Shown: positions 3,961 through 43,714 of the stretch, piece by piece
Numbering within the stretch: position 1 is the stretch's first letter
How the letters are laid out: every line of letters begins with the position of its first letter
Assembly (NCBI RefSeq): GCF_023169885.1
Contig: NZ_AP025516.1
Span: 3,327,501 to 3,391,500 of the forward strand
Length of the DNA stretch: 64,000 nt
Source: Desulfofustis limnaeus
Lineage (GTDB): Bacteria > Desulfobacterota > Desulfobulbia > Desulfobulbales > Desulfocapsaceae
Reading direction: 5' to 3'
Translations under genes and position numbers: made by a program
The notes under the pieces: model-generated
What the model was told of the DNA's origin: nothing
What the model saw: the letters and a program-made list of their open reading frames with translations, nothing else
The model's database searches: none

Positions 3961-4237
3961 GCGTCCTTTCCCCCTGGCGGTGCGACACTGGCACCAATCA
4001 ATCGTTTTCGGCTCAACCGGCCCGATGGGCCGGTCTACAGCGGCCGGCTCTGCTGCGGTTTTTACCCCACTTTCCGTCAACAGGCAAGATGCGCGCTCGG
4101 AAATCGCCAAGAACCCGGCCGTCTAACCGGGCAGGCAGGAAGCCCGTTTTCGTCCAGTTTCTGCGGCGCACGCCACCGAAATGGTTGCTATCGTCCCGGC
4201 TCAATGGAGGTCCAAGGGGCAGTTTCGGTGCCGTTAT

Positions 4238-6351: not shown

Positions 6352-6474
6352 GGATTTTCCTCATCATGACCGGCGTTGTGGAGGCACGACAAGACAGACT
6401 ACCGTCTCTCGAGTATAATCACCAAAGAGAATGGCTGCAGCAATCGATGCACACCCATAACCGGAGGATTGCCG

Positions 6475-7554
6475 ATGTTCTACCCCTCCTGCCTGCCGAT
6501 CCTCATCGGCAGCCTACCCCTCACCGATCACCGTGAGGCCGTACGCACGGTGTTGGCCTGCACGCCGGAAATCCCGAACTGGCCTCAACTGCCGAGACTC
6601 GCGAAGGAAGGGATGGTGCGGCAGTTTCTTGACGGATTACCGGGACTCGTGGAAGCGGGAGCGCGGTTTTGGATCGACACCGACCAGCCCGGCTTCAGCG
6701 ATGAAATGACTTCGTTCTACGAAGAAATCCTCTCCCTCCCAGGTTCCGAACCGTTGCCCGAGACCGGTCGTTTCACTCTCGACCCACACGCGGCCCCTGG
6801 TTTCTTCACGCTCTGCGCGACCCTGATCGACCACGACCGCCGCCCGTTGACCGTCAAAGGTCAGATAACCGGGCCGATCACCTGCGGCATCGGCGTGCGC
6901 GATCAACACGGTATCCCCATCTTTCACGACGACAACCTGCGGGATATGCTGATCAGGCTACTCAGCCTCAAGGCCCGCTGGCAGGTCGAGCGACTACGCC
7001 GGTGGTGCCGGGAGATACCGCCGATCCTGTTCATCGACGAACCGGGCATGGTCAGTTACGGTTCGACAGCATTTTCCGGCATCTCGCGGGATACGGTCGG
7101 CTCGGCCATGGCGACGCTGATCGAGGCCATCAAAGACGCGGGCGGACTGGCGGGTATCCATATCTGCGCCAACGGTGACTGGGCGCCGGCCTTGCAGTCG
7201 GAAACGGACATCATCAGCTTTGATGCCTTTTCCTATTTCGATAACTTCATCCTCTATCGGGAGCCGCTGCTCTCCTTCCTCACGCGCGGCGGCATCCTCG
7301 CCTGGGGCATCGTGCCGACCGGCGACCCGAACGTTATCGCCGCCGCCACCCGGGAAGACCTGCTGCGCCGCTGGCAGGAACAGGTGCAGCGCGTCGAGCA
7401 ACTCGGCTTCCCGGCCGCCCGCCTCCGTCGCCAGGCCCTGATCGCCCCGGCCTGCGGCACCGGCTCGCTCGACCCGGAACTGGCCCGGCACGTGCTGTCG
7501 CTTACCAGTTCCCTGTCACAGCAGATTCGGCAGCTCTATTTCGATCCCGCTTAA
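6475..7554 (+). CDS. MetE/UROD-superfamily methyltransferase-like protein
   Basis: 359 residues from ATG 6475, chosen for the GGAGG located 8 bases upstream. The barrel carries FIDEPGMVSYG, a His-x-Cys pair in GIHICANGDW and a downstream Cys in APACGTGSL. This H-x-C...C arrangement matches the zinc and thiol-binding site of cobalamin-independent methionine synthase C-domains and MtaA-type corrinoid methyltransferases. It is much shorter than MetE (about 750 residues) and lacks its N-terminal half. A role in methyl transfer to or from a thiol is likely; the donor is unknown and no corrinoid protein is adjacent. Confidence 0.72.
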   Translation: MFYPSCLPILIGSLPLTDHREAVRTVLACTPEIPNWPQLPRLAKEGMVRQFLDGLPGLVEAGARFWIDTDQPGFSDEMTSFYEEILSLPGSEPLPETGRFTLDPHAAPGFFTLCATLIDHDRRPLTVKGQITGPITCGIGVRDQHGIPIFHDDNLRDMLIRLLSLKARWQVERLRRWCREIPPILFIDEPGMVSYGSTAFSGISRDTVGSAMATLIEAIKDAGGLAGIHICANGDWAPALQSETDIISFDAFSYFDNFILYREPLLSFLTRGGILAWGIVPTGDPNVIAAATREDLLRRWQEQVQRVEQLGFPAARLRRQALIAPACGTGSLDPELARHVLSLTSSLSQQIRQLYFDPA

Positions 7555-7592
7555 GCACGGCCGTGGGCCAGGCAAACCTTCTCAAGCTCCTT

Positions 7593-8000
7593 TCAATACA
7601 GCAGCCGGTGGCGTATCTCCTTCGGCACATGCGCCGCCAGGGAGGCCAACACAAAGGCGGCCAGCACGGCCACAGTCGCCGGCAGGATGCCGTGAAAGGC
7701 AAGGCCGATGAGGCACACCTTCACCAGGGTGGCGATCCCGGCCGTTTCCCGATAGACCTGCCGATGTCGCATGGCCTCGGCGGCCAGCAACAAAATGCCG
7801 CTGATCACGGCGAGATAGAGGTAACCGGCCGGCATGCGGCCACCAGTTCCCGTCAGATAAAACGTGAGAAACACGGCGGCCCCCACCTGATGTGCCGCCC
7901 GGATCACCACCGAGAACAGCAGGACCCAGTAGGGGCGGACCCCGATCCGTCCGCAGGACGAGCCCTTGCCCCCGTCTCCGTCCGATGAGAACGATACCAT
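7593..8000 (-). CDS. Hypothetical four-helix membrane protein
   Basis: 135 residues from the ATG at 8000, selected for the GGAGGAGGG ribosome binding site before it. After a Gly/Ser-rich N-terminus there are about four hydrophobic segments (VLLFSVVIRAAHQVGAAVFL, a YLAVISGILLLA helix, a TLVKVCLIGLAFHGILP helix and a VAVLAAFVLASLAAHV helix). It looks like a small inner-membrane protein with no recognised family. It is convergent with the MetE-like gene and divergent from the ABC operon. Confidence 0.6.
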   Translation of the reverse strand: MVSFSSDGDGGKGSSCGRIGVRPYWVLLFSVVIRAAHQVGAAVFLTFYLTGTGGRMPAGYLYLAVISGILLLAAEAMRHRQVYRETAGIATLVKVCLIGLAFHGILPATVAVLAAFVLASLAAHVPKEIRHRLLY

Positions 8001-8280
8001 GACTGCCCTCCTCCGCTTCGTGCCGATAGGCACCTACCTGAGACGATATTCGTGGGTATCGTACCATATTTTTCCCTTGCTACCCGGTGAAAACTGGTGG
8101 TGCCGAGCCCGGCAGGTGAAAATCGTGCCCCGGGTCATCCGCTGCCGCCACTACCGGTACCAGCCTCACCCATCGCTTGACATTTTTTCTTCTGTTTTTA
8201 TTATTTTCGCCGATCCGCAAACAGATCGAGCCAGTGCTGACGAGGGTGCATCCACCATTAGTTAAGTTAACGGAGAAACG

Positions 8281-9231
8281 ATGATGATTCAGGTTGACTC
8301 CATCACCCGGGCCTATGGCGATTTTCTGGCCGTCGACCAGGTGTCGTTCGCCATCTCCCCCGGCGAGATCGTCGGCCTGCTCGGCCATAACGGGGCAGGC
8401 AAGACCACGGTTATGAAGATGATGACCGGCTTTCTCGAACCCACCGACGGCACCATCACCATCGACGGTCTCGACGTCATCCGCAATCGCCGGGAAGTCC
8501 AGCAGATGATCGGCTACCTACCGGAAAACTGCCCGGTCTACCCGGACATGACGGTTATCGATTACCTCGACTATGCCGCCGCCCTGCGCGGACTGGACGA
8601 GCGGCAGCGCTCCCGGCTCCTGGCCGAGACCATCGCCAGAACCGGCCTGCAGGAAAAAGCCGGCCATCCCATCGCCACCCTGTCGCGGGGGTACCGGCAG
8701 CGGACCGGGGTCGCCCAGGCTATTCTCGGCAAACCGAAACTGCTGATCCTCGACGAGCCGACCAACGGACTCGATCCCACGCAGATTCAGGAGATGCGTA
8801 GCCTGATCTCCGCCCTGGCCAGCCAGGCCACGATCATCATCTCCACCCACATCCTGCAGGAAGTGCAGGCCGTCTGCGACCGGGTCATCATCCTCAAGGA
8901 CGGCAGGAAGGCGCTTGATGCACGGCTCGATGAGTTGCAGCGCAGCAGCCGGCTGCTGGTGAGCACCGATCAGCCAGCCGAGAAGGTGCTGGCCACGCTT
9001 GCCAAACTGCCGGAATTGGCGGCTGTCGAAGCGGTCCAACCCGACCCACGGCTGCCGAACAGCTATCGTTATGCGCTTTCTCCGGCCCAGCAGGATAGTC
9101 ACCGGGAAACCGCCGCCGTCGTCGCCAAGACCGTTCAGCACCACGACTGGCACCTGTTCTCCCTGCACTTCGAGACCCGGACGCTGGAGACCGTGTTCGC
9201 CGATATCAGCGTGCCCAAGGGAGGGAAGTAG
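8281..9231 (+). CDS. ABC transporter ATP-binding protein, GldA-like
   Basis: 316 residues: Walker A GHNGAGKTT, signature LSRGYRQR, Walker B LLILDEPTNGLD and the switch His in IISTHILQE are all present. The roughly 80-residue C-terminal extension is typical of the NatA/CcmA/GldA branch that pairs with ABC-2 permeases. It begins an operon: its stop is followed directly by the permease start (9232), and a DUF4340 gene follows. A GGAG lies 5 bases before the ATG. It powers the membrane component encoded next. Confidence 0.9.
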   Translation: MMIQVDSITRAYGDFLAVDQVSFAISPGEIVGLLGHNGAGKTTVMKMMTGFLEPTDGTITIDGLDVIRNRREVQQMIGYLPENCPVYPDMTVIDYLDYAAALRGLDERQRSRLLAETIARTGLQEKAGHPIATLSRGYRQRTGVAQAILGKPKLLILDEPTNGLDPTQIQEMRSLISALASQATIIISTHILQEVQAVCDRVIILKDGRKALDARLDELQRSSRLLVSTDQPAEKVLATLAKLPELAAVEAVQPDPRLPNSYRYALSPAQQDSHRETAAVVAKTVQHHDWHLFSLHFETRTLETVFADISVPKGGK

Positions 9232-13164: not shown

Positions 13165-14619
13165 TTACCGAGAGTAGGGGGTGGACGTGGTGGCACCCCC
13201 TTGTCCGGTCCAGTCGGTGTGATGGAATTCGCCGCGCGGCCGGTCGGTCCGCTCGTAGGTGTGGGCACCGAAATAATCGCGCTGGGCCTGCAGCAGGTTG
13301 GCCGGCAACCGCACCGAACGGAGGCTGTCGAAATAGCTGAGTGCCGCGGCGAAACAGGGAACTGGCACCCCATGCATGGCGGCCAGTCCGACCACGTTGC
13401 GCAATTTGGTCTGGGCCTTGTTGATCCGGTTGCTGAAATAAGCCGCCAGCAGCAGGTTTTCCAGTTCCGGCAACCGTTCGTACGCATCAGCGATATGGTC
13501 GAGGAAGATCGAACGAATGATGCATCCGCCTCGCCAGATACGAGCGATCGATGCATAATCAAGATGCCATCCATACTGTTCCGAGGCCTCCCGGAGCAAC
13601 ACGAAGCCTTGGGCGTAGGAGATAATTTTGGCGCAATAAAGCGCCTGTTCCAAGTCCCTTATCAAGTGGTTCTGGTCCCCGGAAAACGGTAAATCTGGCC
13701 CCCGCAGGATCTGGGACGCATGCTGGCGCTGCTCCAGTTGCGCCGAGATGCAGCGAGCAAAGACCGATTCGCTGATCAGGGAGAGCGGGATACCGTGCTC
13801 CAAAGCGGCTGCCACCGTCCACTTGCCGGTCCCCTTCTGGCCGGCGGCATCGAGGATTCTCTCCAGCAGCACCGATCCATCCGGCTCCCGATGGTCGAAA
13901 ATATCGGCCGTAATCTCTATCAGATAGCTGCTCAAGTCACCGCTGTTCCAGTCCCTGAAAATGGTATGCATCCGGCCGGCCGACAGCCCGAGCAACTGCC
14001 GCATGATCTGATACGTCTCGCCGATCAATTGCATGTCGGCATACTCGATGCCGTTGTGCACCATCTTGACGAAATGGCCGGCCCCGCCTCCGCCCATCCA
14101 GGCGCAGCACGGTTCATCGTTGCCGGCCCGGGCGGCAATGGCGGTAAAGACCGGTTCAACCATCGGCCAGGCCGACACGTCGCCTCCGGGCATGATCGAC
14201 GGTCCCCGCAACGCGCCCTCCTCTCCTCCTGAAACCCCGGTACCGATGAAGCGCAAACCCTGGCGATGCAGCTCTTCCCCGCGCCTGACGGTGTCCAGGT
14301 AGTGGGAGTTGCCGCCGTCGATGACGATGTCTCCTTCTTCGAGCAATGGCACCAATTGCGCGATAAAGCCGTCCACCACCTCGCCGGCCTTGAGCATCAT
14401 CAATATCCGGCGCGGGCGCTCCAAAGCCTGGACGAAATCGGAGACCGAATGATGCCCGGTAATCGGCAACCCCCCGGCCCGTCCGGCCAGAAAGGCATCG
14501 ACCTTGGCGGTGGTACGGTTGTAAACGGCCACCGAGAAGCCTTTGCCGGCCATGTTCAGCACCAGGTTCTCGCCCATCACGGCAAGTCCGGCAACACCTA
14601 TCTGCGCAAGAGTAGTCAT
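13165..14619 (-). CDS. gnd: 6-phosphogluconate dehydrogenase (decarboxylating)
   Basis: 484 residues from ATG 14619, preceded by AAGGAGC; this start places the Rossmann motif GVAGLAVMGENL at residue 8 as usual. Other landmarks: DGGNSHYLDTVRR, GTGVSGGEEGALRGPSIMPGG (substrate loop), VKMVHNGIEYADMQ (catalytic Lys and Asn) and KGTGKWT. The length matches the long form of the oxidative pentose phosphate enzyme, which makes ribulose 5-phosphate, CO2 and NADPH. It stands alone on the minus strand. Confidence 0.95.
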   Translation of the reverse strand: MTTLAQIGVAGLAVMGENLVLNMAGKGFSVAVYNRTTAKVDAFLAGRAGGLPITGHHSVSDFVQALERPRRILMMLKAGEVVDGFIAQLVPLLEEGDIVIDGGNSHYLDTVRRGEELHRQGLRFIGTGVSGGEEGALRGPSIMPGGDVSAWPMVEPVFTAIAARAGNDEPCCAWMGGGGAGHFVKMVHNGIEYADMQLIGETYQIMRQLLGLSAGRMHTIFRDWNSGDLSSYLIEITADIFDHREPDGSVLLERILDAAGQKGTGKWTVAAALEHGIPLSLISESVFARCISAQLEQRQHASQILRGPDLPFSGDQNHLIRDLEQALYCAKIISYAQGFVLLREASEQYGWHLDYASIARIWRGGCIIRSIFLDHIADAYERLPELENLLLAAYFSNRINKAQTKLRNVVGLAAMHGVPVPCFAAALSYFDSLRSVRLPANLLQAQRDYFGAHTYERTDRPRGEFHHTDWTGQGGATTSTPYSR

Positions 14620-14788
14620 CGGTTGCTCCTTCAGCTCGGGTCCTTGATTACCGTGTTCGGCCTTCACCACCCGGCCGATTGGTCATTATTCATGATAAAA
14701 GCAGCAATGCCGTTTCGTCAACCGCTCGTTGTCTCCCCCGATCTTCGATGACAGAGCGAAGGTGTCATCTGGTAAAAGCAGGGAAAAT

Positions 14789-16264
14789 ATGGCAGGATAC
14801 CAGAATGAACCCCCTGCCCATCGGTACCCCATGAAAACTGTCCTGATCACCGGAGCCACCGGTTATATCGGCCGCCGACTGACCCAGCGGCTGCTGACCG
14901 GCGGCCGCCACCGGATCCGCCTGCTGGTGCGTAACCCGAGGAAGGTGCAGGTCTCGGTGGCTGACCGGGTTGCTATCCGCACCGGCACCACCTTCGATAC
15001 AGCCTCACTGACGGCGGCTCTGGAAGGGGTAGACACCGCCTTCTATCTCATCCACTCCATGGGGGAAAAGGACGATTATCGTCGGCTCGACAGGGAGAGT
15101 GCCGAGAACTTCCGCCGCGCCTGCATCGCGGCCGGGGTCCGCCGCATCATCTACCTGGGTGGACTCGGCATACGCGACAGCGCCAGCAAACATCTGCTCA
15201 GCCGCATCGAGACCGGCGAAGTCCTGGTAGCCGAACCGCAACGGATCGACACCATCTGGTTACGGGCCGGCGTCATCATCGGCTCAGGGAGTGCCAGCTT
15301 CGAGATCATCCGTAACCTGGCCCAGAAACTGCCGGTCATGGTCACCCCTCGCTGGGTCCGCACCAGGACCCAGCCGGTGGGAATCGAGGATGTACTCTCC
15401 TATCTTGAACAGGCGATCGACCTTGATTACCGCGGCACCCTGACGGTGGACATCGGCAGCGCCCCGCTCAGCTTCCAGGAGATGCTCATCCAGGCCGCCC
15501 GGGTCATGGGTCTGCGCCGTTTCCTGTTTCCGGTACCGGTGCTCTCGCCACGGCTCTCCTCCTACTGGCTGATCCTGTTTACCCCGGTGCCCTACCGGCT
15601 GGCATCAGCGCTGGTGGAAGGGTTGAAGAGCGAGACGGTCCTGCAGAACGATCATGCGGCCAGATACTTCCCGGCGATCCGGCCACTCGATTACCGGACT
15701 GCGGTACAGGCGGCACTCGCCGAAATGGAACACAACCAGGTAGTGAGCCGCTGGTGCGACAGCAGCGGTCTCCAGGCCTGCGACATCACCGATTTCGATG
15801 ACCCGACCGGAGCCATCCTCCGCGATGTTCGCATCGTCCCTTTCAGCCAAGGAGAGAGCCAGGAGGCCGTCTTTCACAGCGCCTGCCGGCTCGGCGGTGA
15901 GCACGGGTGGTTTCGTTACAACGCGCTGTGGCGGCTGCGCGGCTTGATTGACAAACTGCTCGGCGGCTATGGCCTGTCCCGCGGCCGACGGCAAACAGGG
16001 GAGCTGCGGGTCGGCGATGCCATCGATTTCTGGAAAGTGGTCGATCTTCGCGCCAACAAGCGCCTCCTTCTCTACGCCCAGATGAAGCTCCCGGGACAGG
16101 CCTGGCTCGAGTTCGACGTGCAACCCGACCAGCTGGTTCAGACCGCCCACTTCATTCCGCGCGGCCTGCTGGGCCGGCTCTATTGGTACAGCATCATCCC
16201 CCTGCACAACCTGGTCTTCGCCGACCTGGCCCGAGCGGTGGTACGAGCAGCCAGCCGCGAGTGA
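14789..16264 (+). CDS. NAD(P)-binding SDR (NmrA-like) with C-terminal DUF2867 domain
   Basis: An atypical extended SDR: residues 15-35 carry VLITGATGYIGRRL, followed by LVRNPRKV and YLIHSMG, with a YLGGLG segment near the active-site region. The C-terminal 170 residues (HGWFRYNALWRLRGLIDKLLGG, then FWKVVDL and GLLGRLYWYSIIPLHNLVF) are DUF2867. The family is found in many bacteria without an assigned substrate. Two starts are possible: 14789, with an AGGGA ahead, or 14831, which begins exactly at the Rossmann fold. No operon partners. Confidence 0.83.
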   Translation: MAGYQNEPPAHRYPMKTVLITGATGYIGRRLTQRLLTGGRHRIRLLVRNPRKVQVSVADRVAIRTGTTFDTASLTAALEGVDTAFYLIHSMGEKDDYRRLDRESAENFRRACIAAGVRRIIYLGGLGIRDSASKHLLSRIETGEVLVAEPQRIDTIWLRAGVIIGSGSASFEIIRNLAQKLPVMVTPRWVRTRTQPVGIEDVLSYLEQAIDLDYRGTLTVDIGSAPLSFQEMLIQAARVMGLRRFLFPVPVLSPRLSSYWLILFTPVPYRLASALVEGLKSETVLQNDHAARYFPAIRPLDYRTAVQAALAEMEHNQVVSRWCDSSGLQACDITDFDDPTGAILRDVRIVPFSQGESQEAVFHSACRLGGEHGWFRYNALWRLRGLIDKLLGGYGLSRGRRQTGELRVGDAIDFWKVVDLRANKRLLLYAQMKLPGQAWLEFDVQPDQLVQTAHFIPRGLLGRLYWYSIIPLHNLVFADLARAVVRAASRE

Positions 16265-16453: not shown

Positions 16454-17140
16454 GTAAACATCCGCACCCGTAGGGTGCGGCTTTAAATATCCCCCCATAG
16501 GGGGGACAAGGCCCGGCCCCCAGAGGGGGCGGGCCGGGAGTCATGCCGCGTTATGTCTTCTATTCAAACAACCGTAACTGTTCCAGCTGCTTCTCTTTCT
16601 TCTCCTGATAGCGGACATACTTGCGTATCATGTCCGCATCAAGACCTACCGTATCGACACAATAACCTTTCGCCCAAAAGTGGTTGCCCCAGTATGGCTT
16701 CTTCTTCAGATAGCGGAACTGGTGGAAAAACCGCATCGATGTTTGACCCTTTACCCGACCCATCAATTGCGAAATCGACACCTTCGGCGGAACCATCAGC
16801 ACCAGATGGACATGGTCTGGTTGCACATTCATTTCAACAACTTCACAACCGACAAATCCGCATATCGCGTGAATCGCCGTTTCGCATGCTTCTTTTACCG
16901 CTCCGGTTAAAATACGGAACCGGTACTTCGGCACCCATACGATATGATACTGACAGTGCCATATCGAATGTGATAACTTACGGAATCTGCTCACTGCTCC
17001 CTCCTTACATTCTGATGTTGCGGCAACAACTCGATGTAAGGATAGCAGTGGGCGGCCTTCCTGGCCATACCCATACGGGACTGGCCTAGCCAATCCCTAT
17101 TACCCTACCCGTAGGGTAGGGGTTTCCACTTCGTACTAAA
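16454..17140 (-). mobile_element. IS200/IS605-family insertion sequence, copy 1
   Basis: A 687-base unit repeated, as far as can be read, without change at 36979-37665; flanking sequences differ immediately outside. The ends carry foldback structures rather than terminal inverted repeats: CCGCACCC-GTA-GGGTGCGG at 16462-16480 and CCCTACCC-GTA-GGGTAGGG at 17103-17121, as expected for single-strand (HUH) transposition. On the tnpA strand both copies read TTTAG at the left junction and TTTAC at the right, probably target and cleavage pentanucleotides. No target duplication. A GC-rich hairpin at about 16510-16540 probably insulates tnpA. Confidence 0.88.
16560..16994 (-). CDS. tnpA: IS200-type transposase TnpA (Y1 HUH), copy 1
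   Basis: 144 residues from a GTG at 16994, chosen for the AAGGAGGGAGCA before it; the longer reading frame upstream would cross this ribosome binding site and the element's hairpin. The HUH motif is H61-V-H63 in QPDHVHLVL and the nucleophile is Tyr126 in IRKYVRYQEKK; YHIVWVPKYR and FWAKGYCVDTVG are further family blocks. The enzyme cuts and rejoins single-stranded DNA at the element ends. No TnpB/IscB accessory gene is present, so this is the minimal IS200 type. Confidence 0.92.
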   Translation of the reverse strand: MSRFRKLSHSIWHCQYHIVWVPKYRFRILTGAVKEACETAIHAICGFVGCEVVEMNVQPDHVHLVLMVPPKVSISQLMGRVKGQTSMRFFHQFRYLKKKPYWGNHFWAKGYCVDTVGLDADMIRKYVRYQEKKEKQLEQLRLFE

Positions 17141-32740: not shown

Positions 32741-34075
32741 ATGGATGCCATGAACCCCATTTGTATCGTAGACGATCAACCGCTCATCTGTTCAACCGTT
32801 GCCGGCATACTCAAGGACGAGGGGTACCATGCCGTTGCCTTTTCCGATGCGGAGAGCTTCTGGCAGCAACTCGACACCATGGAACCGGCATTGGTGATGC
32901 TCGATATCTGGTTGCCTGGCACGGATGGACTGCAGCTCCTCAAACGCCTCCATGACCGACTTCCCGAATTGCCCATCATCATGATGAGCGGACACGCTGG
33001 CATCGAAACGGCCGTCACCGCCTTGAAAACCGGGGCCTCCGACTTCATGGAGAAACCGTTGGATCTCGACGTCGTGCTGGATAAGGTTAAATCCGCCCTC
33101 AATCGGCAATCACATGAGAGCAGCGACATCGTGTCTCCCGACACTCGACTCGAAATCATCAAGGCCGACCGGCTCCTGCCGCCCGGCATGGTGGAGTTGG
33201 TTGATTCCGCCACCCCACAGCGCACCCTCAAAGAGAATATCGTTCTCAACGGCATCGGGCTTCTCAGCGGGCGAAAAACGGGAATCATCCTTAGCCCCCT
33301 CGAGGCCGACGCCGGAGTCGTCTTTCAAACCCTGGACGGGCAGACGATCCGCGGCCACATCACCTCACTGAAGGATTTTTCCCAGACCGTCTCCACCAAC
33401 GCCTTCTCGGCCAATTCAACGACGCTGGTAAACGGCCGCCAGCAGGTGCGCACCGTCGAGCACCTGCTGGCCGTCATCGCCATGTACGGCATCACCAACG
33501 TGCTGATCAAAGTCGGTGACGAGGTGCCCAACGTGGACGGCTCGGCCAAGGATTTCTGTGACCTGATCAAGCAGGCCGGGACGGAGGAGCAGGCGGCGCC
33601 CACCCGGATGGCGGTCATCCGCCGGACCTTTGGGGTGGGCAACCGGAACAAGGCGGAGAAGCACCTCTACGCGGAGCCGTTCAACGGCTTCGAAATCTCC
33701 ATGCGGGTCGACTATCCCCTTCCCATTGGTGAGCAGACCTATCTGTTCAACCCGGAGAGGGGCTCCTTTGCCGAAGAGATTGCCCCGGCCCGCTCCTTCA
33801 ACACCTTCGAGAATATTGAAATGGCCCAGAAGCTGGGCAAGGTCGGCGCCGGGTATCTCAATTCCCACATCATCATGCACGAGGGAAAGGTCATCAATAC
33901 CGAGCTCCGTTTTGTCGACGAATTCGTCCGGCACAAGGTGCTGGATCTGATCGGTGATCTCTCCCTGCTCGGCTACCCCATCCGCGGACGGATCATCGCC
34001 AACATGACCTCGCACGGCTTCAACCATGCCCTGGTGGAACACATCTATTGGGCGCTTCAAGGCAACCCCGAATAG
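32741..34075 (+). CDS. Response-regulator receiver fused to LpxC deacetylase
   Basis: 444 residues. Residues 1-122 are a CheY-like receiver with the full phosphorylation set: D11-D12, phosphoacceptor D55 (VMLDIWLPG), S83 and K105 (MEKPL). After a linker of about 35 residues, residues 160-440 are LpxC, the zinc UDP-3-O-acyl-GlcNAc deacetylase that commits lipid A synthesis. Zinc ligands H241 (VRTVEHL), H398 and D402 (VRHKVLDLIGD), base E240 and a histidine near 425 are kept. The usual GLHSG reads GLLSG. LpxC normally has no receiver. No histidine kinase gene is adjacent. Confidence 0.9.
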   Translation: MDAMNPICIVDDQPLICSTVAGILKDEGYHAVAFSDAESFWQQLDTMEPALVMLDIWLPGTDGLQLLKRLHDRLPELPIIMMSGHAGIETAVTALKTGASDFMEKPLDLDVVLDKVKSALNRQSHESSDIVSPDTRLEIIKADRLLPPGMVELVDSATPQRTLKENIVLNGIGLLSGRKTGIILSPLEADAGVVFQTLDGQTIRGHITSLKDFSQTVSTNAFSANSTTLVNGRQQVRTVEHLLAVIAMYGITNVLIKVGDEVPNVDGSAKDFCDLIKQAGTEEQAAPTRMAVIRRTFGVGNRNKAEKHLYAEPFNGFEISMRVDYPLPIGEQTYLFNPERGSFAEEIAPARSFNTFENIEMAQKLGKVGAGYLNSHIIMHEGKVINTELRFVDEFVRHKVLDLIGDLSLLGYPIRGRIIANMTSHGFNHALVEHIYWALQGNPE

Positions 34076-34129: not shown

Positions 34130-35374
34130 TCATGTGCTGCCACGAGCCTGCGGCACGGTCTTCATTACCATCATCAGGACCACCGCCATAAAGCTCAAGG
34201 CAGCGCAAAGCTGATAGATCGTCGAATACCCCCACTGTGCTACGATCGGTGCACCGAGAATCGGCCCGAGAAAAAAGCCGGCCTGAAACATCTGGGTGCC
34301 CAGGTTGATGTTGAACGCCCGGAAACGCTGTGGCGATACGTCAAAGAGCAGGCTGTTGAAGACCGGCATGGCAATCCCCCAGCCCAGGCCAAAGAACAGC
34401 CCGAGAGCCAAAAGCAAGAAGTTGCCGGGCAGATGGGCCAATACCAGGTAGCACAGAGACAAGCCAGCCATAATCCAGATGGCCAGCCGGGCTTTGTCGC
34501 CCCGATCGAAAATCGATCCGGCAATCACCCGCACCCCGATCTCACCAAGCGTGGAGAGGGTGAGGAAAAGCCCGGTAAAAGCTATACCGATGGATTTCCC
34601 GTAGCCGTCGAGAAAGAAAAAAATCAGCGCATGGCCACAATACAGCAGCAGCATCGCCAGAAGAAGTATGACTATAGATGGATTTTTGAGATTTTCCCAA
34701 ATCTCGCCGAGCAGAAGACGACGCACCTGCCCCTTGCTCTCATGGTGAGCCCCCGAACCCTCCACTGCCCAAACCAAAGGAAACATGAGCAAGGTCAGTG
34801 CGGCGAAGGCCAGAAGAACGTTATTAAAGCCACCCAACAGGGTTTCGAGAAAGGGCAGGAAAGGCGGCACCAGGGTGTTGGGAATGAGCGTCATCACCGA
34901 GATATACCCAAAAAACTGGGCACTGCGATCCGGGGGAATGGCATCGACAACCAGCGTCATCAGAGCGGTGCCGACCACCGCAAAGGACATACCGTGGAAT
35001 ACACGGACCAACAGGAGGCTCCAGAACCCGTCTGCCAGTGAATAGGCGGCAAGCGAACCAGCCGCCAGAAACGTCCCGATAAAGAGCAGCGACCGGGCAT
35101 TGCCGACATGAAAAAACGGACTGATGAGTGGTCGCAGCACCAGTGCGGTTGCCGCCAAAACTCCGATCAACAGACCGAAGTCGTCAGGATCGATGGTTGT
35201 GCTGCGAAGGTGATCATAAAACCCAAAGAACACCGAGATATTCGCATACGCCACAAAAGCGGCGCCCATTAGGCACAAAAACTTTCGGGAACGCAGGAGA
35301 CTGGCAACGGTCCTGGTGGTCAGGTCGCCGTCTTCGGAAGGTCGATCGGTTGAACTCCCTGGATTTTTTCTCAT
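34130..35374 (-). CDS. MFS transporter
   Basis: 414 residues with twelve predicted helices in two six-helix halves and a charged central loop around residues 205-225 (GSGAHHESKGQVRR). The cytoplasmic loop 2-3 equivalent (FFHVGNARSLLFIG) and the PPDRSAQFFGYISVMTLIPN segment after helix 5 fit the MFS_1 drug/sugar exporter type. Substrate unknown. It is convergent with the receiver-LpxC gene; only 54 bases separate the stops and no strong terminator is seen. Confidence 0.87.
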   Translation of the reverse strand: MRKNPGSSTDRPSEDGDLTTRTVASLLRSRKFLCLMGAAFVAYANISVFFGFYDHLRSTTIDPDDFGLLIGVLAATALVLRPLISPFFHVGNARSLLFIGTFLAAGSLAAYSLADGFWSLLLVRVFHGMSFAVVGTALMTLVVDAIPPDRSAQFFGYISVMTLIPNTLVPPFLPFLETLLGGFNNVLLAFAALTLLMFPLVWAVEGSGAHHESKGQVRRLLLGEIWENLKNPSIVILLLAMLLLYCGHALIFFFLDGYGKSIGIAFTGLFLTLSTLGEIGVRVIAGSIFDRGDKARLAIWIMAGLSLCYLVLAHLPGNFLLLALGLFFGLGWGIAMPVFNSLLFDVSPQRFRAFNINLGTQMFQAGFFLGPILGAPIVAQWGYSTIYQLCAALSFMAVVLMMVMKTVPQARGST

Positions 35375-35877
35375 ACAAAGTGCCGGATGTTATTTTGTAA
35401 ACAGCTCTTGCCGTCATGCAAGCGGCGCTGCAGCGGATTGTCGACCAGTACCGGTTGGTTTTTCCTGCCGGCGAACGCCCGGTCACGTCCGTACCAACCG
35501 CTTGGACCAACGGGGCCTGAAACCGATGGTTGTTTCCATCCCGACACGACTATAGCAAACTCTCTTTGAGAAGGGAATTATCACCCGGAAAGTCGCGTTA
35601 ATATGAAAAAGAGGGCGGTTGCTGCCGTTCAACAATGGTTATCCCTGTTCTTCGGCACGAGCCCATCGCGTTCCCGGACAAGACCGCGGCCACGACCACC
35701 CACAAACCGGCGCCACAGCTTGACTAACTCCTTGATGTGAAATACTATCGCTTATCGTTTACGGCAACCAGTGAAAATGATGAACGGCCATCTTGGCCCT
35801 GGATCGTTCCTTCCGACCACTGCGCTGAACGATCATATTCAATTTCAAGGCAGCCGAAAGATGTGGGGGATGTCACC
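35375..35877. other. Intergenic region upstream of the GNAT-like gene
   Basis: 503 bases with no supported gene. The GNAT-like frame is open back to an ATG at 35737, but that part has no homologous look and ATG 35878 has the better ribosome binding site. No structured RNA, repeat or promoter was recognised with confidence. Confidence 0.45.
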
Positions 35878-36930
35878 ATGAAAACTGCCAGAGAGGCGTG
35901 TTTGGCGGCACTGCGGAATGCACCGCATGCCATTGAACCCGGCCAAAAGTACACGGTCGACAATTTTAAACCGGATGATGCGGTGGGTGTCGCACGCCTC
36001 TACTATGCCGTGTACGGCGAGATGTTTCCCATCGATGCGGTATATGATCCCGAAGCATTGGTGCGGCTCAATTCCGGAGGAGAACAGCACCAGGTCGTGG
36101 GACGGACTGACACAGGCGACATCATCGGCCTTTACGGCATCTTTCGCAACCCACCTGGACGGAGGATCATGGAAGCTGGCTCCTGGATCGTCCACCCGGC
36201 GTATCGCAAGACAACCCTGGCCATGCGCATGGCTGAGAGGATTCACCTGCATCCGCCGGAGTATCTCGGCCTCGACGTCATGTTTGGTCAGAGTGTCACC
36301 GATCACCAGATCACCCAGAAAATGGCCCACAAGTTTCACAGTTTGTCCTGCGCCCTGGAGATTGAAGCCATGCCACCCCGACCGGAACATGAAGATGGCT
36401 GGTCCGCCGGCCGCATCTCCCTGCTCGACGTCTTCGCTGTCTATCATGACCGGCCGCACACGGTCTTTCTTCCCCGTTTCTACGCCGACACCTTGCGTTC
36501 CCTCTACGCAGCGTGGCGGCTCAATCGCTCCTTTTCTTCTGATCGGGCGCCGGAACACCGGCAAACACGCGGGACAATACAGCTCGTTGACCAAGCGGAC
36601 CTGCTGAAAATCACGATAGAGCAGTCGGGATCGGACATGAGCGAATACCTGGCGAGGCTGGAGGCACAGCATCCGGGCCACCATGTGTATCAGCTTATCC
36701 TGCCCCTGTGGCAACCGGGAAGTTCTCTGGCCGTGGAGGCCGCTCGCTCTGCCGGCTACTTTCTCGGCGGTCTGCTGCCGTTGTGGTTCGACAAGGACGG
36801 GTTGTTGCTGCAAAAAGTTGCCGGCGATCCGGATTTCACCCAGATCCAGCTTTTTACCGAGGAGGCCAAGAGCCTCCTGAGTCTCATTATTGCCGATCGG
36901 CGATCACTGCCGCCCCCCGCCGGATTGTGA
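35878..36930 (+). CDS. GNAT-like protein, paralogue of the middle segment of the 1323-residue fusion
   Basis: 350 residues from ATG 35878 (GGGGGAT ahead). It aligns end to end with residues about 410-760 of the ligase/ammonia-lyase fusion: both have KP(D/E)DAxGVARLxYxVYG, TGDIxGxxGxF, a V/I-HPAYR block and a C-terminal G-YF-GG-LP-WFD-DGLL-Q motif. The first half looks like a GNAT acyltransferase, but the RxxGxG/A pyrophosphate loop reads RKTTLA, so acyl-CoA binding may be altered. The second half may be another GNAT-like unit. No signal peptide. Possibly in the same pathway as the fusion. Confidence 0.65.
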   Translation: MKTAREACLAALRNAPHAIEPGQKYTVDNFKPDDAVGVARLYYAVYGEMFPIDAVYDPEALVRLNSGGEQHQVVGRTDTGDIIGLYGIFRNPPGRRIMEAGSWIVHPAYRKTTLAMRMAERIHLHPPEYLGLDVMFGQSVTDHQITQKMAHKFHSLSCALEIEAMPPRPEHEDGWSAGRISLLDVFAVYHDRPHTVFLPRFYADTLRSLYAAWRLNRSFSSDRAPEHRQTRGTIQLVDQADLLKITIEQSGSDMSEYLARLEAQHPGHHVYQLILPLWQPGSSLAVEAARSAGYFLGGLLPLWFDKDGLLLQKVAGDPDFTQIQLFTEEAKSLLSLIIADRRSLPPPAGL

Positions 36931-36978: not shown

Positions 36979-37665
36979 GTAAACATCCGCACCCGTAGGG
37001 TGCGGCTTTAAATATCCCCCCATAGGGGGGACAAGGCCCGGCCCCCAGAGGGGGCGGGCCGGGAGTCATGCCGCGTTATGTCTTCTATTCAAACAACCGT
37101 AACTGTTCCAGCTGCTTCTCTTTCTTCTCCTGATAGCGGACATACTTGCGTATCATGTCCGCATCAAGACCTACCGTATCGACACAATAACCTTTCGCCC
37201 AAAAGTGGTTGCCCCAGTATGGCTTCTTCTTCAGATAGCGGAACTGGTGGAAAAACCGCATCGATGTTTGACCCTTTACCCGACCCATCAATTGCGAAAT
37301 CGACACCTTCGGCGGAACCATCAGCACCAGATGGACATGGTCTGGTTGCACATTCATTTCAACAACTTCACAACCGACAAATCCGCATATCGCGTGAATC
37401 GCCGTTTCGCATGCTTCTTTTACCGCTCCGGTTAAAATACGGAACCGGTACTTCGGCACCCATACGATATGATACTGACAGTGCCATATCGAATGTGATA
37501 ACTTACGGAATCTGCTCACTGCTCCCTCCTTACATTCTGATGTTGCGGCAACAACTCGATGTAAGGATAGCAGTGGGCGGCCTTCCTGGCCATACCCATA
37601 CGGGACTGGCCTAGCCAATCCCTATTACCCTACCCGTAGGGTAGGGGTTTCCACTTCGTACTAAA
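36979..37665 (-). mobile_element. IS200/IS605-family insertion sequence, copy 2
   Basis: Same 687-base unit as 16454-17140, offset by 20525 bases and in the same orientation. The subterminal foldbacks are at 36987-37005 and 37628-37646. It has inserted between the GNAT-like gene (stop 36930) and the fusion gene (start 37853), 48 bases after the former, and separates two genes that may once have been co-transcribed. Confidence 0.88.
37085..37519 (-). CDS. tnpA: IS200-type transposase TnpA (Y1 HUH), copy 2
   Basis: 144 residues from the GTG at 37519, with a translation identical to copy 1, including H61/H63 and Tyr126. Apparent lack of any difference between copies implies recent transposition or gene conversion. 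It should be functional. Confidence 0.92.
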   Translation of the reverse strand: MSRFRKLSHSIWHCQYHIVWVPKYRFRILTGAVKEACETAIHAICGFVGCEVVEMNVQPDHVHLVLMVPPKVSISQLMGRVKGQTSMRFFHQFRYLKKKPYWGNHFWAKGYCVDTVGLDADMIRKYVRYQEKKEKQLEQLRLFE

Positions 37666-37852: not shown

Positions 37853-40800
37853 ATGGAGCAGCTTTTTCTTGATTATGATGATTTTTTCGTCGTAACCCGC
37901 GGCCTGGTCTTTGGAGAGATCAAAAAAATCCGGAAAATCTCCGATGTCTTCGGCGATGAACTGCAACTGTCACCGGACAGCACGTTCGGCACGGATGTCC
38001 TGGCAGTGACTACCGAAGAGCGAGCCGCACTAGCCGCTCGAGTCAGCGGTTTCTTCGGCCTTGACCGGGAAAAATCCGCCGATTTGGCCGGCTTGCCGAC
38101 CCTCGATCTCTGGGCGCGCTATCTGCAAGAGCAGGTCGATTCCCGGCCGAACATCATTACCTTTTCCACCTCCGGCAGCACCGGCGAGCCCAAACTGATT
38201 GTCCGCGACTTTTACTTTCTCGAGCAGGACGCCATGCATCTCGGAGAAATGCTGCAGGGAAGCAAACATGTCATCGGCCTGGTGCCGCCGCACCATATTT
38301 ACGGTTTCATCTATACCATCCTCATTCCAAAGGTATTGCAGGCACGGCGCAGCGACCAGCGCTTCAGACGGCCGGCAGCAATCATGAGAGACCTGAAGCC
38401 GGGTGACGCACTGATCGGTTTCCCCCATATCTGGCAACTCTGCGCCAAAACCAAGGAACGCTTTCCCGCTTCAGTCATCGGCACCACCTCGACCGGGCCT
38501 TGTCCGCCGGAAGTCATCCGCACCCTGAGGCGCCTGGGACTGCAGACGATGATCGAGATCTACGGTTCCTCGGAGAGCGGCGCCATGGGGTATCGCACCA
38601 ATCCCGACGATCCGCTCACCCTGATGTCGACGTGGCAACGCTGGGGCGACGATCGCTTTGTCCGCACCCTTGAAGATGGCAGTCAGTCTGAGCCCTTTTC
38701 CTTCCAGGACGTTCTGGAGTGGGTGGACGAGACTCGTTTTCGGGTCACAAAGCGTCTTGACAGCGCCGTTCAGGTGGCAGGAATCAATATCTACCCGGCC
38801 CGGGTCTGCGAGACCCTGCGCAGCCATTCGGCCGTTGCCGACTGTGCGGTACGGCTGATGCGCCCGGAGGAAGGCGATCGCCTGAAAGCCTTTGTCGTCC
38901 TAAAGGAGGGCATATCTCCGGGCAGTGCTCTTACCGACGACCTGCGCACCTTTCTGGCGAAGCGGCTGAGCCATCTTGAACAACCGAAATCGATCGTCTT
39001 TGGCCCAGCCTTGCCGCGCAACGAGATCGGCAAGTTGGCCGACTGGACCATCGAGTCCAAGACGGTCGCCATGACACTTGACCAGGCGCTGGACAAGCTC
39101 AAAGCCGAGCATCGCCCGGTCCCCGCCGGCCAATCATTCGCCGTCGATCTGCTGAAACCGGAAGACGCCTGGGGAGTGGCCCGCCTCTTTTACGAGGTGT
39201 ACGGCACCTCCTTTCCGTTTGAAACCTATTATATCCCGGACCGGCTCCTGGAGGAGAACCGGTTACGTCTGCTGTTCAGTATCGTGGCCCGCACCCCGAC
39301 CGGTGACATCGTCGGCTACGGCGGCATGTTTCGCAGTTCAGCGCCGCACCCCGGGGTCTATGAAATAGGCTCCCACGTCATCCATCCGGCTTACCGCAGC
39401 TCCCGCGTCGCCCTCGCGCTGCAGGAACACATCAAGGACGTGCTGATCCCCCAACAAAACGTCGAAATGTCCTTCAGTGAAGCCCCCTGTCATCAGGTGG
39501 TCACCCAGAAATTCGCGGCCATGAGCGGCCTGGTTGAGACGGCCCTGGAGATCGGCCTGATGCCAGCGGAAGCCTATGGCCCGTCTCCGGACTATCCGAA
39601 GGATCGGGTTTCCGCGCTCCTTCTATTTGGCAAGACTTCGGACCACCAGCGTCGCCTCTATGTTCCGGACAGCTACCAGGACGCCCTGGAGTTTCTCCTC
39701 CAGGGGCTGACGCTCGACCGACTGGTGTTGCCCGCCCTCCAGGAACCACCGGCCAGCGTCATCACGCGGGTCGCAACTGAATACTTCGACTTTGCCAAGG
39801 TGGCCCGGGTCCATGTACTGACCATGGGCCAGGATTTCTCCCGATCTCTCGCCGGGTTCGAGGCCCAGGCGGTGAAGTCGGGGGCCCGGGTGCTGCAGGT
39901 ATTCGTCAATCTCGGTGAAGCCTGGTGCGCCGCCGGAATCGAGACCCTGCGGGAGCAGGGTTATTTCTTCGGTGGGTTCCTGCCGCGCTGGTTCGATGAC
40001 GATGGCCTGCTCATGCAGCGCGTTTTCGATCTGCCGAATATCGACTCAATCAAGCTCTATTCACAACGGTCGCACCGCATCCTCGATCTCATTCGCCGGG
40101 ATATCGAAGCCAACCCAGCCTGCACAGCGCTGAACAAACGGCCGACGGTCAGGCCGACGGCGGAGGCGCGCTTCAAAGCCGCCGATCTCTCCGAGGTGGT
40201 CCTGTCCGGCGAAGGGCTCACCATCGAGGAGGTCATGGCCGCAGCGCGCTATGGCCGTCCCGTTTCTCTGACCAGGGACGGGGCCATCCTCGCCCGGGTC
40301 GACGGCTCGGCCTCGTTCATCGAATGGGCGGTGCGAACCGGCGAGCCCATTTACGGGGTGAACACCGGCTTTGGCGGCATGGCCAATGTGATGATCGCCG
40401 AAAGCGATCTCTGCGCCCTGCAAAACAACCTGCTCCGCTTTTTGCAGGTCTGCGCCGGCGACCATCTGCCCCTGGAGGACGTCCGCGCCGCCATGCTGCT
40501 CCGCGCCAACTCGCACCTGCGCGGGGCTTCGGGAGTGCGACGTGAACTGATCGAGCGCATCCTCATCTTTCTCAACAACGGCGTGGTGCCGCTGGTGCGC
40601 AATATGGGATCGATAGGAGCGAGCGGTGATCTGGCGCCGCTGGCTTCGATCACCGGGGCGCTCGTCGGAGCCGACGCCTGTTTTCAGGTGAGGATGGGAG
40701 AAGAAACCATAAGTTGTCTGACCGCCCTGCAGCGCCTCGGTCTCAAGCCGCTCACCCTCGGTCCCAAAGAAGGGTTGGGCATGGTGAACGGCACGTCGGT

Positions 40801-41824
40801 GATGACCGGTATCGCCGCCAACTGCCTCTACGATGCTCGCCGGCTGACCGCTCTGGCCCTTGGTTTCCACGCCCTGGTTATCCAGGGATTGCGCGGCTCG
40901 AACCAGTCGTTTCACCCCTTTATCCAGCAACTCAAGCCGCACCCGGGCCAGATCCTGGCGGCAGAGATGATGCTCCACCTGCTGGACGGCTCGACCATGT
41001 GCCGCAACGAACTCGATGGCCACCATGACGCCGAAGACGGGCAGCCGGTTCAGGACCGCTATTCCCTGCGCTGCCTGCCGCAATTTGTCGGGCCGGTCCT
41101 CGACGGCTTGAGACAGGCGGCGGTCGCGATCCAAACCGAGATGAACTCGGCCAACGACAATCCGCTCATCGACGGCGACAACTGCCTCAGCCTGCACAGC
41201 GGCAACTTCCTCGGCCAGTACGTGGCGGTGTGGATGGATCACCTGCGCTATTACCTGGGGCTGATGGCCAAGCACATGGATGCCCAGATCGCCCTGTTGG
41301 TCGCTCCCGAGTTCAACTCCGGTCTCCCGCCGTCGCTGGTCGGCAACCCGGCCCGGCGGGTAAATATGGGCCTGAAGGGCCTACAAATCGCCGGCAACTC
41401 GGTCATGCCCCTGCTTTCCTATTACGGTGCCCCGATAGCCGACCGCTTTCCGACCCATGCCGAGCAGTTTAATCAGAATATCAACAGCCAGGGCTTCAAC
41501 TCAGCCAACCTGGCGCGCAAGACCGTGCAGACCCTGGAAACGTATCTTGCCATTTCCTTGCTATTTGGGGTGCAAAGCGTTTCCCTGCGGGCCGCCCAGA
41601 TGACCGGCTCTCATGATCCGCGGCCCCTGCTCTCGCCGGCAACAGCCGGGCTCTACGAAGCAGTCCTTGCCGTTCTCGGTCACCAGAAGAGCGCCGACCG
41701 CCCTTTGATCTACAACGACGACGAGCAATCGCTGGAAGCCATGATCGAGACCCTGACCAGAGATATCGCCAGCGACGGTAGGACCATCTCGCCTCTGGGA
41801 CAGGTTATCACCAGACTCTGGTAA
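37853..41824 (+). CDS. Acid:CoA ligase / GNAT-like / aromatic amino acid ammonia-lyase fusion
   Basis: 1323 residues in one frame; GAAGGAGACGG precedes the ATG. Residues 1-400 are an adenylate-forming ligase: P-loop STSGSTGEPK (about 103-112), YGSSESGAMG (about 236), RVTKRLDSAVQVAG (about 300) and the C-terminal Lys in RNEIGKLADW (about 392). Residues 410-760 match the GNAT-like protein at 35878. Residues 780-1323 are a HAL/PAL/TAL lyase: YGVNTGFG, the MIO triad A923-S924-G925, GMVNGTS and NSANDNPLID. Selectivity positions F863-L864 match phenylalanine lyases. Expected product: cinnamate, then its adenylate or CoA ester, perhaps passed to the GNAT-like segment. Confidence 0.88.
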   Translation: MEQLFLDYDDFFVVTRGLVFGEIKKIRKISDVFGDELQLSPDSTFGTDVLAVTTEERAALAARVSGFFGLDREKSADLAGLPTLDLWARYLQEQVDSRPNIITFSTSGSTGEPKLIVRDFYFLEQDAMHLGEMLQGSKHVIGLVPPHHIYGFIYTILIPKVLQARRSDQRFRRPAAIMRDLKPGDALIGFPHIWQLCAKTKERFPASVIGTTSTGPCPPEVIRTLRRLGLQTMIEIYGSSESGAMGYRTNPDDPLTLMSTWQRWGDDRFVRTLEDGSQSEPFSFQDVLEWVDETRFRVTKRLDSAVQVAGINIYPARVCETLRSHSAVADCAVRLMRPEEGDRLKAFVVLKEGISPGSALTDDLRTFLAKRLSHLEQPKSIVFGPALPRNEIGKLADWTIESKTVAMTLDQALDKLKAEHRPVPAGQSFAVDLLKPEDAWGVARLFYEVYGTSFPFETYYIPDRLLEENRLRLLFSIVARTPTGDIVGYGGMFRSSAPHPGVYEIGSHVIHPAYRSSRVALALQEHIKDVLIPQQNVEMSFSEAPCHQVVTQKFAAMSGLVETALEIGLMPAEAYGPSPDYPKDRVSALLLFGKTSDHQRRLYVPDSYQDALEFLLQGLTLDRLVLPALQEPPASVITRVATEYFDFAKVARVHVLTMGQDFSRSLAGFEAQAVKSGARVLQVFVNLGEAWCAAGIETLREQGYFFGGFLPRWFDDDGLLMQRVFDLPNIDSIKLYSQRSHRILDLIRRDIEANPACTALNKRPTVRPTAEARFKAADLSEVVLSGEGLTIEEVMAAARYGRPVSLTRDGAILARVDGSASFIEWAVRTGEPIYGVNTGFGGMANVMIAESDLCALQNNLLRFLQVCAGDHLPLEDVRAAMLLRANSHLRGASGVRRELIERILIFLNNGVVPLVRNMGSIGASGDLAPLASITGALVGADACFQVRMGEETISCLTALQRLGLKPLTLGPKEGLGMVNGTSVMTGIAANCLYDARRLTALALGFHALVIQGLRGSNQSFHPFIQQLKPHPGQILAAEMMLHLLDGSTMCRNELDGHHDAEDGQPVQDRYSLRCLPQFVGPVLDGLRQAAVAIQTEMNSANDNPLIDGDNCLSLHSGNFLGQYVAVWMDHLRYYLGLMAKHMDAQIALLVAPEFNSGLPPSLVGNPARRVNMGLKGLQIAGNSVMPLLSYYGAPIADRFPTHAEQFNQNINSQGFNSANLARKTVQTLETYLAISLLFGVQSVSLRAAQMTGSHDPRPLLSPATAGLYEAVLAVLGHQKSADRPLIYNDDEQSLEAMIETLTRDIASDGRTISPLGQVITRLW

Positions 41825-41828
41825 ACAA

Positions 41829-43714
<1,886 letters not shown>

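Follow-up and report, generated by a model that had tools for sequence, protein, structure and literature searches.

The window analysed here is a stretch of 64,000 nt of Desulfofustis limnaeus (GCF_023169885.1, NZ_AP025516.1, positions 3,327,501-3,391,500, forward strand), which harbors on its plus strand a gene at 37853..41824 encoding three enzyme-like parts in a single chain. The gene opens with ATG, is directly preceded by AAGGAG, a good ribosome site, and codes for 1,323 amino acids (aa) plus stop with no internal stop, and therefore the uninterrupted 1323-codon frame described in a first-pass annotation of this DNA is borne out. Judged by sequence and predicted fold, the product is a fusion of an AMP-forming aryl-acid:CoA ligase (residues 1-405, 37853..39067), a GNAT-fold acyltransferase-like part (residues 406-775, 39068..40177), and a 4-methylideneimidazol-5-one (MIO) ammonia-lyase (residues 776-1323, 40178..41821). 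Among the Pfam domains that the annotation expected, AMP-binding and Lyase_aromatic are found over their cut-offs and Acetyltransf_1 below. The N-terminal part, which is matched in both Pfam and NCBIfam, is a short ligase of the ANL superfamily, as indicated by AMP-binding (104-253) and AMP-binding_C (322-394), both above cut-off, by the core motifs, and by a C-terminal lysine. The adenylation loop TSGSTGEPK spans residues 106-114 (38168..38194), and Lys394 within a GK motif (39032..39034) is presumably the catalytic lysine known from the ANL family; both had been recognised before, only that the lysine had been placed near 392. The best NCBIfam model for the ligase is TIGR02372, 4-coumarate--CoA ligase (residues 14-396), with 246.7 bits against a cut-off of 334.7, and this cut-off is exceeded in none of 297 sampled genomes of the phylum. 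The acid used by the ligase would be aryl-acrylate-like.

The C-terminal domain is matched by Pfam Lyase_aromatic (PF00221) at residues 789-1270 (E 8.7e-142, 473.5 bits against a cut-off of 27.3) and contains the MIO-forming triad Ala923-Ser924-Gly925 (40619..40627) at exactly the residues given in the first-pass annotation. By this whole-domain match and the triad, it is a member of the MIO aromatic amino acid lyases. In a comparison with PDB sequences, the nearest solved proteins are the phenylalanine ammonia-lyases (PALs) of Anabaena and Nostoc (E 4e-206 to 3.5e-199, best 688.7 bits), whereas the cut-off of the PAL equivalog TIGR01226 of NCBIfam is not reached (383.8 vs 519.15 bits). The ring-binding selectivity pair Phe863-Leu864 (40439..40444), which aligns with the FL of Anabaena PAL, is kept in all four fusions known to us (see below) and is of the Phe type. 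An exchange of His89 to Phe in a tyrosine ammonia-lyase (TAL) switched the substrate from Tyr to Phe, as described in part of PMC9002059. Since the FL pair of PAL is kept, this selectivity rule makes Phe the predicted substrate and cinnamate the predicted product. Thus, the lyase is predicted to be PAL-like rather than TAL- or histidine ammonia-lyase (HAL)-like, and from the three substrates initially considered, Phe, Tyr or His, the sequence favors Phe. PAL relatives at E 1e-75 or better occur in 11 of 395 sampled genomes of the phylum, and since the best match besides the window's own reaches only 267 bits against 1,221, this sample contains no unfused protein closely related to the lyase.

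The part between ligase and lyase is less easily assigned. Acetyltransf_1 matches residues 457-532 with 15.1 bits in the whole protein and 17.8 bits in the isolated segment, both below the cut-off of 20.7, and a search of PDB sequences with the GNAT profile gave weak GNAT matches only (best E 0.018). The whole subfamily is recognised by Pfam and NCBIfam at best as general GNAT. Therefore, the GNAT call is weak by sequence alone, but it is rescued by the family members L060 and L066, which exceed the Acetyltransf_1 cut-off, and by the predicted fold. An AlphaFold2 model based on an alignment of 85 family members has a predicted local distance difference test score (pLDDT) of 94.6, and its first half aligns with PDB entry 1yvo_B over 162 residues (Z 13.1, root mean square deviation 2.8), which identifies it as a GNAT fold. 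The acyltransferase-like middle segment noticed earlier is thereby confirmed, although its Pfam score itself stays below the cut-off. The C-terminal half modelled alone (pLDDT 94.9) gave weak GNAT matches (Foldseek E 6.6e-4) and AtNUDT7/antizyme-like domains at Z 8.4 to 7.0; according to the model it is likely, not certain, that it represents a second, truncated GNAT-like half. Six residues are invariant in all 85 aligned members, namely Glu504, Gln552, Pro605, Gln682, Phe714, and Asp717. Among these, Glu504 (39362..39364) is located in strand four of the model and is proposed from alignment and model to be the general base, a role which we assume by analogy with GCN5.

The same three-part architecture recurs outside the window, so that altogether four genomes from two bacterial families carry the fusion. 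The fusion of genome G014 is 82% identical overall to that of the window, the one of G091 (a Desulfobulbaceae metagenome-assembled genome (MAG); same contig as L068) is 86, 88, and 93% identical in ligase, GNAT part, and lyase, respectively, and the one at L069 (a Desulfovibrio MAG) 61, 64, and 77%. In the window's family, 3 of 93 genomes searched with the ligase-GNAT part contain the fusion. The checked catalytic residues are kept in 4/4 fusions. A stop or frameshift between the domains, which the first-pass annotation named as the finding that would speak against a single protein, is not seen in the frame of the window, and the frames of the three other fusions are likewise free of stops. 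For all three domains in the six possible pairs of fusions, the ratio of nonsynonymous to synonymous substitution rates (dN/dS) is 0.06-0.22, with 0.12-0.22 for the GNAT part and 0.12-0.21 for the ligase; dS is above 1 in 12 of 18 comparisons, and the closest pair (dS 0.42-0.54) gives 0.08-0.14. Since the fusion recurs in four genomes and dN/dS is low in every domain, both an assembly error and a decaying gene can be dismissed, and the low values over six pairs equally argue against the GNAT part being a decaying linker. Among plasmids, 610 records match, but all with <60% identity and none covering 80% of the query. Besides its fusion, G091 harbors a second ligase, apparently unfused and ~56% identical to the ligase domain of the fusion, which is split over two contig ends (L051 1-1020, minus strand; G091:C59:17479-17733).

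Relatives of the GNAT part were collected by scanning 84,980 species genomes with the GNAT profile and two peptide patterns of this part, so that fusions without those patterns would escape. The scan matched 335 stretches, 233 of which encode relatives, and the best 80 were kept, corresponding to 78 loci. Within these best 80, two loci hold the fusion; 72 of the other 76 have a GNAT open reading frame (ORF), none of them joined to a ligase or lyase, and no ORF labelled GNAT is found in L074, L096, L117, and L140. In the 764-aa frame at L125, the N-terminal stretch looks like an extension in the wrong frame. The hosts are mostly Deltaproteobacteria or their groups, with a few Verrucomicrobia, Chlorobiaceae, Nitrospiraceae, Thiodictyon, and Selenomonadales. 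In the tree, the four fused GNATs form one clade (100/100) beside five non-fused rows (99/98) and inside a clade of 33 rows (89/94). The neighborhoods of 29 non-fused rows of this clade and 49 rows of the next one were compared, out of 91 tree rows in total; the four fusions, four upstream-type rows (L060 included), L084, two KASIII-linked rows, and two HATPase-GNAT rows were left out. In the fusion clade, a ligase-like gene lies within 4 kb in 20/29, a carrier-protein gene in 19/29, and both in 17/29, whereas in the next clade the numbers are 2/49 for the ligase-like and 1/49 for the carrier-protein gene. These counts are lower bounds, as some loci are cut by contig ends. A first operon count took 73 of the 78 loci, the other five, among them the L069 fusion, having no plus-strand ORF labelled GNAT.

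Close reading of 14 loci gave the gene order ligase-acyl carrier protein (ACP)-GNAT for 13 of them, and in L072 the ligase comes after the GNAT gene. One such stand-alone ligase-ACP-GNAT row is that of Trichlorobacter thiogenes. From 13 aligned ACPs six were tested, and five of these pass the Pfam PP-binding cut-off. The ligase of L053 in G014, which adjoins a GNAT gene, passes the cut-off of the benzoate-CoA ligase family, and the other ligases of such modules were assigned by similarity to the ligase of L053 or L057. The GNAT gene of L070 adjoins a phosphopantetheinyl transferase (PPTase) gene, and L071 reads likewise by eye. Further arrangements of the family were noticed. GNAT-family genes adjoin FabH-like genes in L056 (5428-8750; two of them plus an ACP-like frame) and L092 (~13856-16000), like a small polyketide or fatty-acid cluster, named by reading and similarity. 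In L061, L066, and L067, proteins of ~500 aa join HATPase_c_2 to the same GNAT family, the HATPase part being above cut-off in L061 and L066. The GNAT genes of L054, L102, L133, and L145 stand in a row with STAS, HATPase, NMT1-like, and SpoIIE-like genes, resembling a partner-switching set, and adjoin MFS and molybdenum hydroxylase genes (all named by reading). Finally, L079 of Desulfobacter vibrioformis (3980-9068, plus strand) shows by eye a row of ligase-like, saccharopine-dehydrogenase-like, class-III-aminotransferase-like, and GNAT genes, which is a possible clue to an amine acceptor.

Directly upstream of the fusion, the window contains a stand-alone GNAT paralog of ~350 aa on the plus strand (35878..36930; the ORF opens with GTG at 35737, homologs start at 35878). 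Such a paralog is the next gene upstream in 4/4 fusion loci, with gaps of 89 nt in G091, 95 nt in G014, and 39 nt in L069. In model numbering, the upstream GNAT of all four loci has Gln at family Glu140, which is fusion residue 543, and keeps His145; the fused GNAT keeps Glu140 and has Gln at 145. Upstream and fused GNAT might thus provide two complementary half-sites. In the window, paralog and fusion are separated by an IS200/IS605-type element (36979..37665; transposase 37085-37618, minus strand), which may uncouple their expression and of which a second copy, identical over 687 nt, is present at 16454-17140. Divergent from the paralog lies an MFS transporter gene (34130..35374, minus strand) that is 77.6% identical to one in the G091 fusion neighborhood. 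Another frame (32741-34075, plus strand; 444 aa) joins a response-regulator receiver domain to LpxC, the lipid A deacetylase. With at most 18 candidates scored per genome, 25 of the 93 genomes of the family have a match to it, in 23 cases nearly full length. On the other side, a group II intron reverse transcriptase/maturase (41900-43300, minus strand; TIGR04416 above cut-off) has its frame end 75 bases past the fusion stop, and some frames beyond it read by eye like phage genes. A role in anti-phage defence was considered and rejected, as PADLOC gave no match for the fusion or its upstream neighbor.

The GNAT family is often accompanied by a protein of ~430 aa that we named HATP3, a HisC-like aminotransferase, xanthine-dehydrogenase-like molybdenum hydroxylase subunits (MoL, MoS), and an MFS protein. 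HATP3 has a weak HATPase_c_2 match (21.0 vs 27.4 bits) and, in three loci, weak GNAT-family matches (E 1e-6 to 2e-4). The aminotransferase exceeds the TIGR01141 cut-off in the one tested, and the hydroxylase subunits are below every cut-off listed. HATP3 is found in 6 of 93 family genomes, and these are exactly the six in which the GNAT family is matched strongly, at 135 bits or above; in G034 and G061, HATPase-GNAT proteins score weakly (<58 bits). Were the genomes independent, two sets of six would coincide with a chance of 1.3e-9, but independence does not hold here. HATP3 occurs in each of the four fusion genomes, with 31% identity in the genome of L069. In the window's genome the row HATP3-HisC-MoL-MoS (L146) is located ~0.53 Mb from the fusion, and in G091 the row MFS-MoS-MoL adjoins the GNAT-fusion pair in divergent orientation.

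A carrier of the module type was not found near any of the four fusions in a motif scan, and the carrier profile matches in G000, G014, and G091 lie elsewhere. In G091, G014, and the genome of L069, module-type carriers away from the fusion reach 59.8-70.1 bits, and the latter genome also has a ligase-ACP-GNAT row (L163). The window's genome has weak carrier matches of 34.3 bits or less, compared with 120.6 in the genome of Desulfobulbus elongatus, which is the source of one model row, and 19 matches to the G014 ligase, of which the best is 31% identical (132.5 bits) and none is near the fusion except the fusion itself. Since the carrier matches are weak and no ligase exceeds 31% identity over most of the length, the fusion may be the sole ligase-GNAT of this kind in this genome, and for the same reasons the simplest assumption is a donor bound to CoA and not to an ACP.

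The sequences show the domains and catalytic motifs, the conservation of the fusion and the selection acting on every domain, the association of the GNAT clade with genes for ligase-like enzymes and carriers, and the co-occurrence with partner genes; from these we infer all reactions and their order, the acceptor, and the export. At a probability of roughly 0.57, we regard the fusion as a self-supplying aryl-acyl transferase leading from Phe via cinnamate and cinnamoyl-CoA to an N-cinnamoyl product. The C-terminal MIO lyase would strip ammonia from L-phenylalanine to give trans-cinnamate, the N-terminal ligase would convert this to cinnamoyl-AMP and then cinnamoyl-CoA, and the middle GNAT part, with Glu504 as base, would move the cinnamoyl group to an amine. 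The case for the lyase step is strong by homology, that for the ligase step is good, and the transfer step is probable from context and conservation. In many non-fused relatives, the second and third step would be divided among three proteins, namely a ligase-like enzyme, a small carrier protein, and a GNAT encoded on its own; the fusion would use its 4-coumarate:CoA-ligase-like domain instead and add its own acid supply. As no carrier is found beside the five nearest relatives, it may have been lost before the fusion arose. Formation or modification of the acceptor is probably the task of the HisC-like aminotransferase, the molybdenum hydroxylase, and the HATP3 protein, and the product may leave the cell via the MFS protein. 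The first-pass annotation had already proposed one chain that deaminates, activates, and transfers. This idea fits the domains and gains support from the gene context, i.e. the ligase-like and carrier neighbors of the wider clade, with the reactions standing as predictions. The same neighbors, together with the missing acetyl-CoA motif and the second GNAT-like half, refine the earlier acyltransferase reading.

Several points weigh against this assignment. The acetyl-CoA loop, which we take to be [QR]xxGx[GA], is missing in 83 of the 85 aligned members and present in two, the fusion having RSSRVA at this place. Furthermore, the fused GNATs have His at 547, where 66/85 have Asn, and Gln at 548, where 78/85 have His. 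Because the motif is missing and family-typical residues are changed in the fusions, catalysis by the GNAT part is not assured. Since the TIGR02372 score is below its cut-off, the acid used by the ligase is likewise a predicted one. The support of the 33-row clade (89/94) stays below the star mark of the tool (95/80), and the contrast between the clades, with Fisher values of 8e-10 for ligase-like and 5e-10 for carrier genes, is not corrected for relatedness. Moreover, among the five nearest non-fused relatives (L070, L071, L072, L077, L079) a ligase-like gene lies within 4 kb in three and a carrier gene in none, so that the ligase-carrier-GNAT set belongs to the wider clade and not to the closest relatives.

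Other explanations use the same observations differently. The product could be a signal, with a GNAT-fold synthase joining cinnamoyl-CoA to an amino-acid-derived acceptor like in LuxI-type aryl-homoserine lactone synthesis, which would be a special case of the transfer proposed above. Synthases of the LuxI type are members of the GNAT superfamily, different ones using acyl-ACP or acyl-CoA, according to the parts of PMC4234381 on these enzymes, and these two donor types are the ones proposed here for the relatives and the fusion; in addition, 12 of 49 rows of the other GNAT clade adjoin STAS/SpoIIE/HATPase/NMT1-like genes. However, this neighbor set sits in the clade without fusions and occurs in only 1/29 of the fusion clade. 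A search of the GNAT segment against Pfam at E up to 10 with HMMER filters on lists Acetyltransf_1 alone and no LuxI-type family, and NCBIfam gives no family for the upstream paralog, the NCBIfam matches of the fusion being judged on the best 25 of 78. We regard a signal as an unlikely outcome. We consider it a little less likely still that the GNAT part is a built-in regulator that acetylates Lys394 and switches the ligase off, in the manner of stand-alone protein acetyltransferases that act on AMP-forming acyl-CoA ligases, so that the enzyme would then only make cinnamoyl-CoA. The linkage of GNAT and ligase-like genes and the kept Lys394 would suit such a switch, but the usual acetyl-CoA motif is missing from nearly all members, and the other large clade, with its two ligase-like neighbors in 49 rows, offers no obvious target. 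Also the carrier-protein neighbors of the wider clade and the PPTase gene of the one relative tested fit thioester chemistry and not protein acetylation.

The degenerate acetyl-CoA loop and the changed residues 547-548 in the fusions would also fit a GNAT part that is a catalytically dead scaffold tying lyase and ligase together, from which cinnamoyl-CoA is released, perhaps to the GNAT paralog directly upstream that could perform the transfer, though this paralog too departs from the family motif. A dead scaffold would hardly keep six residues including Glu504 invariant in the whole alignment, nor a GNAT dN/dS like that of the ligase, which makes it an improbable solution. The least can be said for a precursor of a chromophore or pigment, as in photoactive yellow protein (PYP) or aryl polyene pathways, which the first-pass annotation had mentioned for comparison. 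The best ligase model is a 4-coumarate--CoA ligase, and three related ligases of the phylum (L062-L064) adjoin genes resembling those of ketosynthases, thioesterases or dehydratases (named by reading only). In contrast, the lyase is of the Phe type and not of the Tyr type. A PYP partner was sought and rejected: there is no match in the window's genome and none above the family cut-off in any of the four fusion genomes, with three weak matches (23.1 bits or less) within long frames of G014, and the PYP route is thus not supported. Aryl polyene clusters carry ketosynthase, dehydratase, and thioesterase genes; none of these is among the six fusion neighbors scanned, the other neighbors being read by eye. 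We hold a pigment precursor to be very improbable.

Provided that the fusion is indeed an aryl-acyl transferase, a single gene may replace the usual set of several, phenylalanine would be the only feedstock needed for the aryl half of the product, and the gene would be a compact tool for cinnamoyl amides. Since fused genes hint at which enzymes cooperate, the fusion and the ligase-carrier-GNAT rows of the wider clade together suggest a chemistry from aryl thioester to amine for this GNAT subfamily. It also suggests a pathway of sulfate-reducing bacteria and related anaerobes for which the open-licence literature searched gave no description, neither of the three-part chain or the ligase-ACP-GNAT gene set nor of the HisC-like/molybdenum-hydroxylase/MFS set that accompanies the GNAT family. 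Going further, and only tentatively, the fusion could be the tip of an undescribed biosynthetic system of anaerobes, in which a GNAT subfamily uses aryl thioesters, bound to ACP in many relatives and to CoA in the fusion, and works with HATP3, the HisC-like aminotransferase, the molybdenum hydroxylase, and the MFS exporter toward new N-aryl-acyl compounds, perhaps signals. In such a system, one gene would supply, activate, and transfer the aryl group, and the upstream GNAT may pair with the fused one.

Compared with known systems, the lyase has the MIO triad, the catalytic Tyr, and the FL selectivity pair in common with the cyanobacterial PALs of Nostoc punctiforme (2nyf) and of what we take to be Anabaena variabilis (2nyn, 3czo), but differs in being one domain within a three-part chain. 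The ligase is, like those of TIGR02372, presumably the type of PYP operons, a short ANL ligase with the core motifs, whereas it stays under the cut-off, is fused, and has no PYP above cut-off in its four genomes. In pyp operons, TAL and CoA-ligase genes lie near each other (as stated in parts of PMC12826048 and PMC9664959), and the pyp operon of H. halophila performs the same two steps from an amino acid via an aryl acrylic acid to the CoA ester. However, the latter has separate TAL and pCL genes, Tyr as the substrate, and a protein Cys as the acceptor, and the words acetyltransferase and GNAT are absent from the main text of the source (PMC12826048, drawn on in part). With the LuxI-type acyl- and aryl-homoserine lactone synthases, the GNAT part shares the superfamily, in which the acyl group is taken from ACP or CoA, so that one family can use either donor (PMC4234381, relevant sections). 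In contrast to these, the fused GNAT shows no Pfam match to their sequence family, has a second GNAT-like half, and is supplied with its donor in the same chain. AcuA and Pat, GNAT protein acetyltransferases regulating AMP-forming ligases, also link a GNAT to such a ligase, from which the family of the fusion differs by its lack of the acetyl-CoA motif and by the carrier-protein neighbors in the wider clade. Each of the domains by itself is already known.

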